The notes under the pieces: model-generated | What the model saw: only the letters and a program-made list of their open reading frames with translations | Told to the model about the DNA's origin: nothing | Database searches by the model: none | DNA from: Chitinophaga pinensis | Lineage (GTDB): Bacteria; Bacteroidota; Bacteroidia; Chitinophagales; Chitinophagaceae | DNA length: 64,000 nucleotides | NCBI GenBank assembly: GCA_943333125.1 | Contig: CALQSB010000014.1 | Location: forward strand, 1-64,000 | Direction of reading: 5' to 3' | Position numbers and translations under genes: made by a program | Shown here: positions 30,774 through 38,316 of the stretch, in pieces | Layout of the letters: each line of letters starts with the position of its first letter | Position numbering within the stretch: the first letter of the stretch is position 1

Positions 30774-32330
30774 ATGAAAAAGTATTTTACAAGTTTGGGT
30801 GCTGATTTTTCTGCAGCAATTGTTGTTTTTTTGGTGGCTATTCCATTGTGTTTGGGAATTGCAGTTGCGAGCGGCCTGGGTGAATTTTCGGGTATCATTG
30901 CAGGTGTTGTTGGCGGCGTTGTTGTTGGATTAATAAGTGGGAGTCATTTAAGTGTAAGTGGTCCTGCAGCAGGATTAACCGCTATTGTTGCTGCAACCGT
31001 TTTAAAGCTACCCGCAATTGAAGCGTTTTTTTTAGCTGTTGTTATTGCCGGTTTACTGCAAATAATTATGGGCTTTTTGAAGTTGGGTATAATCGGTGAT
31101 TATGTACCCAATAGCGTTATTAAAGGCATGTTGGCTGCAATTGGAATTATTCTGATTTTAAAACAACTGCCTCATCTTGTTGGCTACGACAAAGACTATG
31201 AGGGTGACGAAACTTTTTTACAAATTTCAGGAGAAAACACTTTTTCTGCTGTATTTAATGCCGTGAATTTTATTACCCCTATTTCGATTATTATAGGATT
31301 GGTGGGTATTTTTATTCTAATTATTTATGAATCAAAAAAAATAAAAGAAAAAAGATTGTTTCAAATTTTAAGCGGTCCGCTGCTTGTGGTAATCGCCGGT
31401 ATTTTAATTAATAAATTTTTAGGTGGCATCGATTCTGTTCTTACAAACAGAGAAGCTCATCTAGTAAAAATTCCTGTCGCTTCATCTTCTGCCGAATTTT
31501 TCTCTTTCTTTAATTTCCCAAACTGGAGTTATATTTCCAACGCAGATGTATGGGTTAGTGGATTTACAATAGCAATTGTGGCCTCGCTTGAAACCTTATT
31601 AAGTATTGAGGCTGTTGATAAATTAGACCCTGTTAAAAGGGTTACTCCCCCAAACAGAGAGCTGGTGGCTCAGGGATTTGGCAATATGGCAAGCGGGCTT
31701 ATTGGTGGGCTTCCTCTTACAAGCGTTATCGTTAGAAGCAGCGCCAATGTGAATGCTGGGGCCAAAACAAAAAGCAGTGCCATCATACATGGATTGTTGA
31801 TTTTAATTTGTGTTTGTTTTGCTCCCGTGGTTTTAAATATGATTCCAAAGGCGGCATTGGCGGCGATCCTTGTTTTCACCGGATATAAACTTACTCGTGT
31901 TTCTCTTTTTAAAGAGTATTACAAAAAAGGATGGGAACAATTCATGCCTTTTGTTGTTACAATTTTGGCTATCGTTCTAACAGATCTTCTTAAGGGTGTT
32001 GTTATTGGTATCTCTCTAGGGCTTTTTTATACCATCAGAAGCAACTTCAGAACAGCGGTTTTTGTGATTCATGAAAAAAATAATTATTTGATTCGTCTTA
32101 GAAAAGATGTTTCTTTTTTTATTAAACCCATACTAAAAGAAAAGCTTGAATTGATTCCAGAAAATACCAATCTCATTATTGATCTGGTACATGCTGAACA
32201 TATCGACAGAGATGTAATTGATACTATTAATGAATTTTTAAGTCACGCTCATTTGAAAAATATCATTTGTACTATCAATAAGAATGATTTTAATGAACTT
32301 CATAAATTAGTAAATGATCCTTCTTTTTAA
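30774..32330 (+). CDS. SulP family inorganic anion transporter
   Basis: IVVFLVAIPLCLGIAVASG; GSHLSVSGPAAGLTAIV; NMASGLIGGLPLTSVIVRSSAN; C-terminal STAS-like region. Start moved to ATG 30774. Confidence 0.92.
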   Translation: MKKYFTSLGADFSAAIVVFLVAIPLCLGIAVASGLGEFSGIIAGVVGGVVVGLISGSHLSVSGPAAGLTAIVAATVLKLPAIEAFFLAVVIAGLLQIIMGFLKLGIIGDYVPNSVIKGMLAAIGIILILKQLPHLVGYDKDYEGDETFLQISGENTFSAVFNAVNFITPISIIIGLVGIFILIIYESKKIKEKRLFQILSGPLLVVIAGILINKFLGGIDSVLTNREAHLVKIPVASSSAEFFSFFNFPNWSYISNADVWVSGFTIAIVASLETLLSIEAVDKLDPVKRVTPPNRELVAQGFGNMASGLIGGLPLTSVIVRSSANVNAGAKTKSSAIIHGLLILICVCFAPVVLNMIPKAALAAILVFTGYKLTRVSLFKEYYKKGWEQFMPFVVTILAIVLTDLLKGVVIGISLGLFYTIRSNFRTAVFVIHEKNNYLIRLRKDVSFFIKPILKEKLELIPENTNLIIDLVHAEHIDRDVIDTINEFLSHAHLKNIICTINKNDFNELHKLVNDPSF

Positions 32331-32383
32331 ATATAAATTCATTTCAAATTGCTTTATTTCTTTACCTTCAAAAAAAATAAAAA

Positions 32384-33019
32384 ATGATAAACTCTTACGA
32401 TAAACTTTTACTCGAAAATAAAGCCTGGGCGACAGAGCAGGTTCAATTAGACACAGACTTTTTTAAGCGATTATCTCACATTCAAACTCCAGAATTTTTA
32501 TGGATTGGATGTAGTGATAGTAGGGTACCTGCAGATAAAATAACCGGAACCCAGCCCGGTGAAATTTTTGTACATAGGAATATTGCCAATATGGTTGTTC
32601 ATACAGACTTAAACCTGTTAAGCGTTTTAGAATATGCTGTTCAGGTGCTTAAGGTAAAGCATATTATTGTTTGTGGTCACTATGGTTGTGGCGGGGTTAG
32701 AGCAGCAATGGGAAACCACTCTCTTGGTATCATAAATAAATGGCTCAGAAACATTAAAGATGTTTATAGAATTCACCAATCGAATTTGGAAAAAGAGACC
32801 AATGAAGACAAAAGAGCAGACATGCTGGTTGAATTGAATGTTAAAGAACAAATTATGAATCTAGCAAAAACTTCAATCATTCAAAAAGCCTGGAAGTATG
32901 AACAACGCCCTCATTTACATGGATGGGTATATGGATTAAACGATGGTATTATTAAACCCGTTTGTGAAATGGAACCAGGAACACACATCGACCCTATTTA
33001 CGAATATGATAATTTATAA
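32384..33019 (+). CDS. can: Beta-class carbonic anhydrase
   Basis: LWIGCSDSRVPADKITGTQPGEIFVHRNIANMV; HIIVCGHYGCGGVRAAM. Confidence 0.95.
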   Translation: MINSYDKLLLENKAWATEQVQLDTDFFKRLSHIQTPEFLWIGCSDSRVPADKITGTQPGEIFVHRNIANMVVHTDLNLLSVLEYAVQVLKVKHIIVCGHYGCGGVRAAMGNHSLGIINKWLRNIKDVYRIHQSNLEKETNEDKRADMLVELNVKEQIMNLAKTSIIQKAWKYEQRPHLHGWVYGLNDGIIKPVCEMEPGTHIDPIYEYDNL

Positions 33020-33022
33020 AAA

Positions 33023-33523
33023 ATGACCGCTAAAGATCTAATTGACCAGTTTCAAATGCTGCCTCATCCCGAAGGTGGCTGGTATAAAGAAAACTATAGA
33101 AGCGCTGAACAAATTTCTGCAAATGATTTACCTGAAAGGTTTTCCGAAAGCCGCCCTATTTCAACAGCTATATACTTCTTAATGGAACAAGGTAATTTTT
33201 CTGCTTTTCATAAAATAAAAAGCGACGAGTGCTGGCATTTTTATGCCGGACAAACACTGTTGATTTATATTATAGACAATAATGGTACACTTGAAATTGT
33301 AAAACTTGGAAACAATATAGATAATGAAGCGTGTTTTCAGTTTGTTGTTCCCGCCAATTGCTGGTTTGCAAGCAGGCCCGCCAACGAAAGCCTGTTTTCA
33401 TTCGTTGGTTGCACCGTTGCTCCGGGCTTTGATTTTAATGATTTTAAATTAGCAAAAGCTACCGAACTAATAGAATTATATCCAAATCATACTGATATTA
33501 TTAAATCATTGTGTCGTCAATAA
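33023..33523 (+). CDS. Cupin domain-containing protein (DUF985-like)
   Basis: MLPHPEGGWYKENYRS; STAIYFLMEQGNFSAFHKIKSDECWHFYAG. Confidence 0.85.
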   Translation: MTAKDLIDQFQMLPHPEGGWYKENYRSAEQISANDLPERFSESRPISTAIYFLMEQGNFSAFHKIKSDECWHFYAGQTLLIYIIDNNGTLEIVKLGNNIDNEACFQFVVPANCWFASRPANESLFSFVGCTVAPGFDFNDFKLAKATELIELYPNHTDIIKSLCRQ

Positions 33524-33607: not shown

Positions 33608-33634
33608 AAAAACAGATTATATAAACCTGTTTTT
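33608..33634 (+). terminator. Putative terminator downstream of the SulP-CA-cupin cluster
   Basis: AAAAACAGattatataaacCTGTTTTT; modest stem. Confidence 0.45.
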
Positions 33635-33747
33635 GATTGATTGATAATTGTTGAAAAAATCGGTATAATTTTTTTTATTACTAATATTATACTTTATATC
33701 TTTCCGTTGATTACTACCAATCTATTAAATTCTAAATAAATAACTTT

Positions 33748-34242
33748 ATGCAAGACGGTACTGTTGATAAGGAGGCTGTCATTCTTATTAGCAAAAACTC
33801 TTTCTCGGAAATTTGTATAAAGCCAGAATCCGGAATGCGTTTTCTTCGTTCATTGTGCACAATAAAAAAAGACGCCATAATCACTGCTTTTAAAGAAAAT
33901 GGATATTTTTATGAGCCGAGTTGCTTTACCATTCAAACCGAAATAAATAAACATATTTCTTTGTTTCCTTTTTTACTTAAATACACTAATCATAGTTGTG
34001 ATCCTAATGTTTTTTTTGATACCACCTCGATGCTTTTGATTGCAATAAAAGACATTGCGGCAGGAGATGAGCTTTGTTCTTTTTATCCTTCTACGGAAAA
34101 AAATATGGCTCAGTCTTTTTTTTGTAACTGCGGAAGTAAGAATTGTCTTGGAGAAATTACGGGCGCTTCTACAATTCCAAAAGACATTTTAAAAAAATAC
34201 AGACTAACCGATTTTATACGTTCTCAAATTTTTGATATCTAA
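33748..34242 (+). CDS. SET domain-containing protein with post-SET cysteine cluster
   Basis: LLKYTNHSCDPNVFFDTTSMLLIAIKDIAAGDELCSFY and FFCNCGSKNCLGEITG. Confidence 0.85.
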   Translation: MQDGTVDKEAVILISKNSFSEICIKPESGMRFLRSLCTIKKDAIITAFKENGYFYEPSCFTIQTEINKHISLFPFLLKYTNHSCDPNVFFDTTSMLLIAIKDIAAGDELCSFYPSTEKNMAQSFFCNCGSKNCLGEITGASTIPKDILKKYRLTDFIRSQIFDI

Positions 34243-34253
34243 TTTTTAAATTA

Positions 34254-35423
34254 ATGACAAGAGCCGTTGCTTCTTTATTTAAATTTTCTTTACCGAAAAA
34301 TCTAAAAATAAAAGTTTGGGTACTGGCACCTGCAATAGAATCAAAGGATGAGCATATAGATTATTATTACGATTTTACACAAAGCATTGCCGAGTATACT
34401 GCTGTTTTTAAAACTTTGAATATTTTGTGGGAATGGAAAGAAATAAATATGAATAATTTTAAAGCGGTTATTAATGAGATTGAGTCAGACCGCGATACTT
34501 TCTTTCCTGTTGCACTCAATCTTTGTGATGGCGATGAAATAAATGGCGCTCCCGGGCTTTCTGTAATTAAATATCTAGAAGAAAAAGAGATTATTTATAC
34601 AGGTTCGGATGAGTTCTTTTATAATATTACCACGTCAAAAATTCCTATGAAAAAAGCTTTCGACATGGCGGGTGTAGCTAATGCGGAGTGGACTTTTTTT
34701 AGAAGTAAGGGAGATTTTAATGCAGAAGATATTTTAAATAAAACAGGAACTCCTGTTATCATTAAGCCTGCTGTATCCGGTGGAAGTATGGGGGTGGGAA
34801 TTAAAAACGTTGTAGATAATAAAGAAGAGCTAACGATATTGGTTGATAGTTTGTTGGACGGTTATAGAGGCTGGAATTTGAATGCAGATGGAATTATTGC
34901 AGAACGATTTATTGCCGGCCCGGAATTTACAGTATTTATCAGCGGCTCTTATGACCGACCAAATGATGCAGTTATTTATACGCCAGTCGAACGCGTTTTT
35001 CATCAATCTCTTCCTGACAAAGAAAAGTTTTTATCTTTTGACCGTCTTTGGGAAATTTATGAAACAGAATCTCCAATGCCCGAAGATGAGAATTTTTATG
35101 AGTATCAGTTACCGGATCCATCTTTGATTGATTCTATAAAACAATTAAGCTGGGAAGCTTATGTTGCAACTAAAGGTATGGGCTACACGAGGGTTGATAT
35201 CAGAATGGATTTAGTAACTAATAAATTGTATGTATTGGAAGTAAATGCACAATGCGGAATTAGCGAGGATGAAAATTTTACTTCTATTGGAGCAATATTA
35301 AAATTTTCAGGAAGAACTTTTTCACAACTTATTGAAGAAATTCTAAATGATGCCATTAAAAGGGGTTACTCAAAAATTATTTCTCATGTCAATAATAATA
35401 AAAAGAAGGCTATAAGATCTTAA
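34254..35423 (+). CDS. ATP-grasp protein related to D-alanine-D-alanine ligase
   Basis: VIIKPAVSGGSMGVGIKNV; FIAGPEFTVFISG; GYTRVDIRMD; LYVLEVNAQCGIS. Confidence 0.85.
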   Translation: MTRAVASLFKFSLPKNLKIKVWVLAPAIESKDEHIDYYYDFTQSIAEYTAVFKTLNILWEWKEINMNNFKAVINEIESDRDTFFPVALNLCDGDEINGAPGLSVIKYLEEKEIIYTGSDEFFYNITTSKIPMKKAFDMAGVANAEWTFFRSKGDFNAEDILNKTGTPVIIKPAVSGGSMGVGIKNVVDNKEELTILVDSLLDGYRGWNLNADGIIAERFIAGPEFTVFISGSYDRPNDAVIYTPVERVFHQSLPDKEKFLSFDRLWEIYETESPMPEDENFYEYQLPDPSLIDSIKQLSWEAYVATKGMGYTRVDIRMDLVTNKLYVLEVNAQCGISEDENFTSIGAILKFSGRTFSQLIEEILNDAIKRGYSKIISHVNNNKKKAIRS

Positions 35424-35440
35424 TTTATAGCAGGAATCAG

Positions 35441-36910
35441 ATGTCAAATGAATTGAAAAATAAAAACCAATTTGCAGTAAAAAAAGTTTGTGTTTTACTG
35501 CCCGATTATTCTACCTCCGATGTAGATTATCAACATTATGATCCTCCAAGAGACCTTTCTCTGCTCCTTCCAGAATGTGAGATCGAGCATGTATTGTTAA
35601 ATAAACTTACCACCTATAAACAGCTTAAAGAGCTCAGTAAGAAAAATTTTGACGTTTTTGTAAACCTATGCGAAGGTTATCTGGAGTGGGCCGTTCCTTC
35701 AATTGATGTTATTTATTTTCTTGAATTACTAAATCTTCCTTTTACAGGACCAAGTTCCCTTTTGTATGATCCTACAAAAGAGTTAATGAAATATGTTGCT
35801 TACACACAAGGCGTAAAAACGCCAAATTATGCTTTGATTGAAGAATTGTCTGATATCGAAACACAATGCAAGCATCTCTCCTATCCTTTGTTTGTTAAGC
35901 CATCAAAAGCTGGAGACAGTTTAGGTATTGACGAAAAATCGCTGGTATATAATTATGGCGAGCTGTTTAAAAAAATCAGTTCAATCATTGATGAATACGG
36001 GCCTTTGCTGGTGGAAGAATATATTGATGGAAGAGAATTTACTGTTATGCTGGTAAGAAATCCAGAAAGCCTTTTATCCACCAAGGTGTTCGCCCCCGTT
36101 GAGTATGTTTTTCCGGAAGGTAAAAAGTTTAAAACCTATGCTTTAAAAACATCCGAACTTCATACCGAAGCCAACAGAGCTGTCAAAGATTTTGAGCTGT
36201 CTGATAAATTAAAAACATCTGCTGAAGATATTTTTAATGGTTTTGGTGGTGTTGGATATGCAAGACTGGATTTCAGAATGAACGAACATGGTGATTTGTT
36301 TTTTCTGGAAATCAATTTTACGTGCTCCGTTTTTTACAGTGGTGGGTATGAGGGTTCTGCAGATTATATTTTAAAAATGGACGGCTGCAGTCCTGATACT
36401 TTTTTACGAATGATTATTGAAGAAGGCAGGGCAAGATATCTTCGAAACCAGAAAAAATATAAAATGAGGGGCAACTCCATCTCTGGATACGGAATCTATG
36501 CCACCAAAGATATTGAAGCCAATGAGTTGATTTTCAAGGGAGAAGAAAGATCACAACGCATTGTATCTCAATCATATGTGAATAACAACTGGACTGTTAA
36601 AGAATTAGAAAACTTTAAAAAATACGCATATCCTCTCAGTAATGAAGTATTTTTGCTCTGGGATGAAAATCCGGCGGGTTGGGCTCCTCAAAATCATAGT
36701 TGCGAGGCCAACACGGTTTATAAAGGACTTAATGTTGTTGCATTACATCCAATAAAAAAAGGCGAAGAACTAACCCTCAATTACGCTGATTTTTTAAATG
36801 ATAAAATGGAGCCCTTTAATTGTACATGTGGAAGCTTGAAATGCCAGGGTTATATTAGTGGCGTTCCTTTAAATTCTGTCAGCACAAGAGAAGAACATAT
36901 CAAGATCTAA
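35441..36910 (+). CDS. Bifunctional ATP-grasp (D-Ala-D-Ala ligase-like) and SET domain protein
   Basis: ATP-grasp: LFVKPSKAGDSLGI, YIDGREFTVML, GYARLDFRM, LFFLEINFTCS. SET from about 36470: ISGYGIYATKDIEANELIF, APQNHSCEANTVYKGLNVVALHPIKKGEELTLNYADF, CTCGSLKCQGYISG. Confidence 0.87.
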   Translation: MSNELKNKNQFAVKKVCVLLPDYSTSDVDYQHYDPPRDLSLLLPECEIEHVLLNKLTTYKQLKELSKKNFDVFVNLCEGYLEWAVPSIDVIYFLELLNLPFTGPSSLLYDPTKELMKYVAYTQGVKTPNYALIEELSDIETQCKHLSYPLFVKPSKAGDSLGIDEKSLVYNYGELFKKISSIIDEYGPLLVEEYIDGREFTVMLVRNPESLLSTKVFAPVEYVFPEGKKFKTYALKTSELHTEANRAVKDFELSDKLKTSAEDIFNGFGGVGYARLDFRMNEHGDLFFLEINFTCSVFYSGGYEGSADYILKMDGCSPDTFLRMIIEEGRARYLRNQKKYKMRGNSISGYGIYATKDIEANELIFKGEERSQRIVSQSYVNNNWTVKELENFKKYAYPLSNEVFLLWDENPAGWAPQNHSCEANTVYKGLNVVALHPIKKGEELTLNYADFLNDKMEPFNCTCGSLKCQGYISGVPLNSVSTREEHIKI

Positions 36911-37009
36911 CCCGCTGATTTCCTGTTACTACCTATTTTATTTTTTTCTTTTTGTTAAGTCAAATCCATTGGGTATTGACTATTGTTTCTGTTTTTAAAA
37001 ATAAAATTT

Positions 37010-37942
37010 ATGTATAAGCTCGATTTAATTGGAAAACTAATTAAGAGATATAGGGCAAAACTTGCTATAACATATTCTCTTTTTTGTTTGGAAATGTTGG
37101 GTACCCTTTTAAGGCCCTTTATGTTGGGTGTTGCTGTAAACGATCTGATAAAAGGAAAATATCAGGGATTAATTATTCTTTCTGTTGTTCATTTGTGTTG
37201 GTTGGTTATTAGTACGATAAGGCACATGTATGATACCAGAACTTTTTCTGCGATTTATACTTCATTGGTAACAAGATTTCTGAATCGCAGATACGGGAAA
37301 TCTGATATCTCTAAACTAAGTGCACATTCCACCCTTTCCAGAGAATTGGTGGATTTTTTAGAATCTGACCTTCCGTATATAATAGAGGCTTTTTATAATA
37401 TTGTAGGGTCTTTGATTCTCCTTTATTTTTATGAAAGCAGCGTGGTATTAATTTGTTATGCAATTCTTTTTCCGGTGATTATCATCAGCTATTTCTATGG
37501 TAAAAAAATGAGAAAATTAAGTCAGTTGAAAAACGACGAATTGGAAAACCAGGTTAGTATAATTGCAATTGGGAATAACGAATCAATACTCAGGCATTAT
37601 AACAAGCTACGTAACCTTCAGATTAAAATATCAGATAAAGAGGCTTGGAATTTTGGAATAATAGAAATGCTGGTATTAATTGTAATAGGCGGTTCTTTGA
37701 TTATTTCTTCAAACATGTTTGGCACTACAATTCTGGCTGGAAATTTAATTGGTATTTATAATTACATTTTAAAATTTGTATCTGGCCTTGATACTATTCC
37801 CTATACCGTTCAGCGATTTTCATTACTTAAGGATATAATAAAAAGAATTGAACTTCAGTCTGACGATATTTCTGAGTCCTATGATTATTCAGATGACACA
37901 AAAGAAAAATATCGTCAAGGCGTTTTAAAACTCAGGGCATAG
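37010..37942 (+). CDS. ABC transporter transmembrane-domain protein lacking an ATPase domain
   Basis: Six-TM exporter-like pattern (LIGKLIKRYRAKLAITYSLFCLEMLGTLLRPFMLGVAVNDLI...); ends after the TM region with no Walker A or LSGGQ. Start moved to ATG 37010. Confidence 0.65.
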   Translation: MYKLDLIGKLIKRYRAKLAITYSLFCLEMLGTLLRPFMLGVAVNDLIKGKYQGLIILSVVHLCWLVISTIRHMYDTRTFSAIYTSLVTRFLNRRYGKSDISKLSAHSTLSRELVDFLESDLPYIIEAFYNIVGSLILLYFYESSVVLICYAILFPVIIISYFYGKKMRKLSQLKNDELENQVSIIAIGNNESILRHYNKLRNLQIKISDKEAWNFGIIEMLVLIVIGGSLIISSNMFGTTILAGNLIGIYNYILKFVSGLDTIPYTVQRFSLLKDIIKRIELQSDDISESYDYSDDTKEKYRQGVLKLRA

Positions 37943-37944
37943 TT

Positions 37945-38316
37945 TCACATGTATTCGTTTTTTATAATCACACACCATTCGTTGTCCAGGGGCATGTATC
38001 CGTATTCGTAACAATAGAAGTAATGGGCGCCTAATTTATTTTTATGTATTTGGGTGGTAAGATTAAAAGAAAATCCAAGCTGCATCATATATTCTTTTTT
38101 CAATTTTATCATTGAATCTTTTTCTCCTAAAATATTTTCAAGAATTCTTCTGTTTTTCGAAAGTCTGTTATTGATATTTCTAACATAATTATTAGCCGCG
38201 GATTTAAGTTGATTATTATATCCGTTTCTGCAATAATCATTACAGAACTTTTTATCTATTCTTCCTTTAATAACTTTACTACAGGCGATACAATTTTTTA
38301 ATGGGGTGTGTTGCAT
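37945..38316 (-). CDS. Hypothetical protein with N-terminal zinc-ribbon-like CxxC...CxxxC motif
   Basis: KNCIACSKVIKGRIDKKFCNDYCRNGYNNQ. Confidence 0.65.
   Translation of the reverse strand: MQHTPLKNCIACSKVIKGRIDKKFCNDYCRNGYNNQLKSAANNYVRNINNRLSKNRRILENILGEKDSMIKLKKEYMMQLGFSFNLTTQIHKNKLGAHYFYCYEYGYMPLDNEWCVIIKNEYM

Follow-up and report, generated by a model that had tools for sequence, protein, structure and literature searches.

What would two ATP-grasp ligases, two SET domains and a transporter-like membrane protein make if they worked together? The question is raised by a 64,000-nucleotide stretch of Chitinophaga pinensis DNA (assembly GCA_943333125.1, contig CALQSB010000014.1, positions 1 to 64,000; hereafter the window), where positions 33748-37942 of the plus strand hold a four-gene cassette that a first-pass annotation had read as SET / ATP-grasp / ATP-grasp-SET / ABC membrane domain. 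Open reading frames (ORFs) and Pfam matches agree with that description. SET1 (33748-34242, 164 amino acids) matches the SET family PF00856 at 1.1e-8, and GRASP1 (34254-35423, 389 amino acids) matches Dala_Dala_lig_C at 1e-16. GRASPSET (35441-36910, 489 amino acids) joins an ATP-grasp ligase matching the same family (3.8e-19) to a C-terminal SET/post-SET region (SET at 5.6e-11). The last gene, ABCm3 (37010-37942, 310 amino acids), encodes an ABC-exporter-type membrane domain without a nucleotide-binding domain and matches PF13748 (ABC_membrane_3) at 1.4e-44. The intergenic gaps are 11, 17 and 99 nt, the last of them measured to the ATG at 37010; this longest gap may hold a separate promoter for ABCm3. 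We think it fairly probable that these genes encode a pathway to a small methylated peptide or amide that is independent of nonribosomal peptide synthetases (NRPS).

The cassette SET1-GRASP1-GRASPSET-ABCm3 is a real, selected functional unit and not a chance neighbourhood. Co-occurrence was assessed in 197 Chitinophagaceae genomes, and the earlier proposal that the genes belong together was borne out there by tight co-occurrence and conserved order. GRASPSET is present in 64 of these genomes, spread over 35 of 95 genera, GRASP1 and SET1 in 65 each, and ABCm3 in 26. GRASP1 and GRASPSET are found together in 64 genomes, with the sole exception of G501, where the end of a contig truncates GRASP1; SET1 likewise accompanies GRASP1 in 64, and all 26 genomes with ABCm3 also have GRASP1 and SET1. 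Fisher tests give 8e-50 for GRASP1 with SET1 and 5e-15 for GRASP1 with ABCm3, values that are descriptive and carry no correction for shared ancestry. In seven genomes (G293, G392, G433, G468, G525, G558 and G573) SET1 lies at a distance or on another contig and yet has been retained, which argues for a functional and not merely positional linkage. Among the first ten relatives from public genomes the fusion protein is approximately 58-91% identical and the order of the cassette is the same in nearly all; the nearest, L005, is a Chitinophagaceae metagenome-assembled genome (MAG) whose GRASPSET is 91% identical. A cultured species, Ginsengibacter hankyongi (L010), also has SET1, GRASP1 and GRASPSET. 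Across a sample of the whole phylum Bacteroidota, GRASPSET was found in 17 of 395 genomes. No relative was found among viral contigs, and plasmid matches to the GRASPSET fusion apparently cover the ATP-grasp half only. A role as a defence system was also considered, for which PADLOC gave no convincing match. One contig titled as a Streptomyces griseus MAG (L006) has its genes arranged as in Chitinophagaceae (SDR, SulP, carbonic anhydrase, cupin, cassette, SSB), and its title looks mislabelled.

The two ligases are ATP-grasp carboxylate-amine ligases with the fold of D-alanine-D-alanine ligase (Ddl). The AlphaFold model of GRASP1 (pLDDT 82.7) leads in Foldseek to the Ddl fold, and the Lys, Glu, RxD and ExN typical of ATP-grasp enzymes are invariant in all 70 distinct GRASP1 sequences and all 80 of GRASPSET. 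They are not paralogues of Ddl, because the Ddl signatures are missing from them and because a true Ddl, with both signatures, is encoded elsewhere in the genome. These signatures, which we take to be HGxxGE[DN]G and E[LIVA]N[STP]xP[GA], were scored in the two ligases combined: HGxxGEDG occurs in 0 of 150 sequences (0 of 70 for GRASP1) and E-x-N-[STP]-x-P-G in 1 of 150, and both ligases carry NLC[DE]G in their place. Both also miss the curated NCBIfam cut-offs for Ddl, with 77 against 243 bits and 84 against 246 bits, in keeping with the first-pass reading, for which neither should be an ordinary Ddl. BacD and an L-amino acid ligase are among the weak matches of GRASP1 in a search of the PDB. 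The profile of the GRASPSET ligase scores a ligase from a Thioflavicoccus plasmid, whose gene adjoins others for a diaminopropionate-type biosynthesis, at 116.7 bits, as against 88.4 for the genome's own Ddl. On the Thioflavicoccus mobilis plasmid pTHIMO01 (L050:4485-9966), genes for a diaminobutyrate transaminase, SbnA, an ornithine cyclodeaminase-like protein and a Ddl-like ATP-grasp protein adjoin a KamA-type radical SAM gene, and this gene run looks like a diaminopropionate dipeptide pathway.

The first-pass annotation had assumed N-methylation of the lysine type, and this assumption needs revision for SET1, whose nearest solved relative is BurB, a SET enzyme that makes S-methylmethionine from free methionine and does not accept two related thioethers as substrates (PMC12542666). 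When the SET1 profile is searched against the PDB, BurB (9L4T) comes first at an E-value of 4.5e-21 and 78.5 bits over a nearly full-length alignment, whereas the runners-up are histone methyltransferases at about 1e-9 and 41.1 bits, aligned over the C-terminal half only. In the motifs that SET1 has in common with BurB (TxQ...H, YxSTE and IxGA), the Q, H, Y, E, I, G and A are invariant in 66 of 66 SET1 homologues; the less strict positions are the first T (88%), the S (97%) and the second T (83%). BurB itself scores 77.8 bits with the SET1 profile and 56.4 bits with that of the GRASPSET SET half, and the genome's other two SET proteins reach about 15 bits or less with both; one of these two resembles protein-lysine SETs instead. 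Of the side chains with which BurB contacts S-adenosylmethionine (SAM), SET1 keeps His93 alone. Since the other four of the five are missing, we go no further than naming SET1 BurB-like, and make no claim that its substrate is methionine. From its sequence, SET1 is predicted to be a BurB-like enzyme with a SET domain and a post-SET zinc site, that is, an amino-acid or small-molecule methyltransferase, and it is the nearness to BurB that favours such a substrate over a protein lysine.

BurB-like genes elsewhere stand in a variety of surroundings. A homologue of SET1 on an Eleftheria plasmid lies in a bur-like cluster with polyketide synthase (PKS)/NRPS, dioxygenase, aminotransferase and aldehyde dehydrogenase genes. 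On a Sphingomonas paeninsulae plasmid (L153:5794-7532) a BurB-like SET gene overlaps a diaminopimelate-decarboxylase-like gene, a pair that might be expected if methionine were methylated and then decarboxylated in a pathway of the dimethylsulfoniopropionate (DMSP) type. On a plasmid of Streptomyces sp. NBC_00648 (L151:5797-7903) a BurB-like SET gene, annotated as a lysine methyltransferase, lies immediately 5' of a gene for a SulP anion transporter.

All 80 distinct homologues of GRASPSET keep the fusion of ATP-grasp and SET together with its catalytic residues; in the SET half, the N, H and C of NHxC, Tyr448 and the three post-SET cysteines (CxCx4C) are invariant in all of them. The placement of this SET half relative to BurB is more ambiguous than that of SET1: a profile search of the PDB places MLL-type SETs and BurB about equal, though with a larger profile of the fused SET BurB reaches 56 bits and the genome's other SETs 15. 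The AlphaFold model of GRASPSET, made from 11 sequences, has a pLDDT below 50 over most of the SET half.

Is transport part of the system? The first-pass annotation had the product exported, and this survives in part: a membrane component does belong to the cassette, and a full exporter is found in a second clade, but ABCm3 lacks an ATPase, and most genomes with the cassette do not have it. Homologues of ABCm3 align from the ATG at 37010 in a seven-sequence alignment, so that this is probably the true start, while the TTG at 36983 is the mechanical one. Neither a Walker A nor an ABC signature motif is present in ABCm3, and Pfam finds no nucleotide-binding domain elsewhere in the cassette. Members of PF13748 in Bacteroidota are mostly about 284-348 amino acids long, too short for an ATPase domain; the lack of an ATPase in ABCm3 is thus a property of the family and not decay. 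Where ABCm3 is present, it lies close 3' of GRASPSET in most genomes, and in one genome (G033) SET1 has been relocated 3' of it. The second Bacteroidota clade (L044-L047, L049 and L143), whose fusion is about 38% identical, has the order SET1, GRASPSET, a complete ABC exporter with its ATPase, and a small SET protein of about 120 amino acids with BurB as its best match; GRASP1 is missing beside the fusion. That a complete exporter here stands in the place of ABCm3 is our strongest argument for transport as part of the system.

From these observations we infer the order of the steps, the substrates, the small-molecule product and the direction of transport. SET1 would transfer the methyl group of SAM to a free amino acid, and the best single guess for this reaction is methionine to S-methylmethionine, because BurB, the closest characterised relative, carries it out. 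In GRASP1 and in the ligase half of GRASPSET, ATP would convert a carboxylate to an acyl phosphate for coupling to an amine, so forming one or two amide bonds, and the SET half of GRASPSET may methylate the intermediate or the product once more. ABCm3, or the complete ABC exporter of the second clade, would then carry the product into the membrane or through it. A bolder version, which we put forward tentatively as a possibility, is that the cassette represents a new class of pathway in Bacteroidota, in which SET domains, one of them fused to a ligase, act as amino-acid methyltransferases on the way to a secreted sulfonium (S-methylmethionine-type) or N-methylated peptide.

We favour a methylated and perhaps sulfonium small product, made without NRPS and exported where a transporter is encoded, because SET1 has BurB as its nearest relative of solved structure; several observations weigh against it. 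Arg42, His72, Arg133 and His138, which contact SAM in BurB, are not conserved in SET1 homologues. The wider BurB-like group also takes in proteins without an assigned function, and BurB holds methionine by main-chain atoms (PMC12542666), which means that substrate specificity is not readable from sequence. Post-SET zinc sites are typical of protein-lysine methyltransferases too, ABCm3 is without an ATPase and missing from 39 of 65 cassette genomes, and the cassette holds no dedicated gene for making a precursor. The main rival to the small-molecule pathway is a system of protein modification, in which the ligases would tag a target protein with an amino acid or peptide and the SET domains would methylate the tag or the protein, perhaps at the envelope together with ABCm3. 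Classically, SET with post-SET domains are protein-lysine methyltransferases; the fused SET half lies about as close to MLL-type SETs as to BurB in the PDB search, a eukaryotic fusion of SET-like and ATP-grasp (tubulin tyrosine ligase (TTL)-like) domains exists in TTLL12 (PMC3520985), and a membrane domain without an ATPase would suit such a role. We nevertheless consider it unlikely, since SET1 is clearly nearer to BurB than to any protein-lysine SET, the fused SET, with its larger profile, also ranks BurB above the genome's other SETs, the ligases are of the Ddl type and not of the RimK/TTL type, and the second clade has a complete exporter.

The same evidence bears on three further explanations. 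Methyltransferases and transporters often accompany the genes of ribosomally synthesised and post-translationally modified peptides (RiPPs). Here the ligases and SET domains could modify a ribosomal precursor peptide in the manner of graspetides, where ATP-grasp ligases are known as tailoring enzymes (PMC8939145). The gaps of the cassette contain no conserved small ORF, the candidates there being unrelated between loci; this, and the Ddl-like sequence and fold of the ligases, make a RiPP improbable. If the cassette ended, like the bur pathway, in DMSP or another simple sulfonium osmolyte, the BurB-like nature of SET1 would fit, but the cassette is without equivalents of the decarboxylase, transaminase and aldehyde dehydrogenase BurI, BurD and BurE, and two ligases would be superfluous for DMSP, so that we regard this outcome as highly improbable. 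Least probable of all is that the ligases are ordinary Ddl paralogues making D-Ala-D-X for the cell wall beside unrelated neighbours: the fold is the same and the best named matches are D-alanine--D-alanine ligases, but all Ddl models score far under their cut-offs, the signatures are missing, a normal Ddl is encoded elsewhere, and the neighbours co-occur tightly. The pathway to a small methylated peptide or amide thus stays the preferred reading.

The surroundings of the cassette agree with the first-pass description. A hairpin (AAAACAG...CTGTTTT, about 33608-33634, plus strand) separates the cassette from the cupin gene that precedes it; it is also found in L005 and is a probable terminator of the preceding operon. 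A -7-like element, TATCTTTC, at 33697-33704 on the plus strand had been noted ahead of the cassette, and comparison across loci supports it as the cassette's promoter element: of 61 loci, 23 have TATCTTT upstream of SET1, as against 3.4 expected from shuffles, and in 13 of these 23 it lies at -22 to -24. The window's own copy is about 50 nt 5' of SET1. The longer pattern TTTG-N15-22-TANNTTT was found upstream of SET1 in 11 loci, with 1.5 in shuffles. On the 3' side follows, as first annotated, a minus-strand gene (37945-38316), which encodes a small zinc-ribbon (DUF2116-like) protein; its position is kept in several relatives, and in L014 it is nearby but elsewhere. The genes for a SulP transporter, a carbonic anhydrase and a cupin_5 protein (30774-33523 of the window) form a conserved run of their own in close relatives. 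The cupin, carbonic anhydrase, SulP, zinc-ribbon and SSB neighbours were considered as parts of the cassette and rejected, as they reflect synteny among close relatives and are mostly missing from more distant loci.

SET domains are best known from chromatin. Here SET methyltransferases are linked to ATP-grasp peptide synthesis both in one fused protein and in one co-inherited cassette, in about one third of the sampled Chitinophagaceae genomes (64 of 197). If SET1 does methylate a free amino acid, many bacterial annotations as "SET domain-containing protein-lysine N-methyltransferase" may be wrong, and the product would be a widespread, possibly secreted small molecule of Bacteroidota. The parts are of known kinds, while their combination and the fused ATP-grasp-SET enzyme appear to be undescribed: like the first-pass annotation, which knew of no characterised pathway of such composition, we found none in the searchable literature, nor any description of such a cassette or of a bacterial ATP-grasp-SET fusion. 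An earlier mention may exist, the likely place being the 2009 survey of amidoligases by Iyer et al.

How, then, does the cassette compare with known systems? ABCm3 is a strong member of PF13748, a family for which we know of no characterised function, and among the sampled Chitinophagaceae its branch is confined to genomes that carry the cassette. With BacD and the L-amino-acid ligases of NRPS-independent pathways the cassette has free-standing ATP-grasp ligases and small operons in common, but GRASP1 and GRASPSET are not members of the BacD type by sequence, and to our knowledge neither SET domains nor an ATP-grasp-SET fusion occur among those pathways. With Ddl the two ligases share the fold and the residues for ATP and Mg (K, E, RxD and ExN), and differ in that GRASPSET is fused to a SET domain. 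TTLL12 carries SET-like and ATP-grasp-superfamily ligase domains in one polypeptide, as GRASPSET does (PMC3520985); it is eukaryotic and its ligase is of the TTL type, whereas that of GRASPSET is of the Ddl type, and the likeness is one of analogy only. BurB, the SET-domain methionine S-methyltransferase (MSMT) of Burkholderia thailandensis and Streptomyces mobaraensis (PDB 9L4T and 9L4V), shares with SET1 the TxQ...H motif, an HSC core, an active-site Tyr followed by xSTE, the post-SET cysteines and IxGA. BurB works in a pathway with a decarboxylase, a transaminase and a dehydrogenase that feeds a PKS/NRPS line (PMC12542666, PMC7496086); SET1, unlike BurB, is nearly always accompanied by ATP-grasp ligases.

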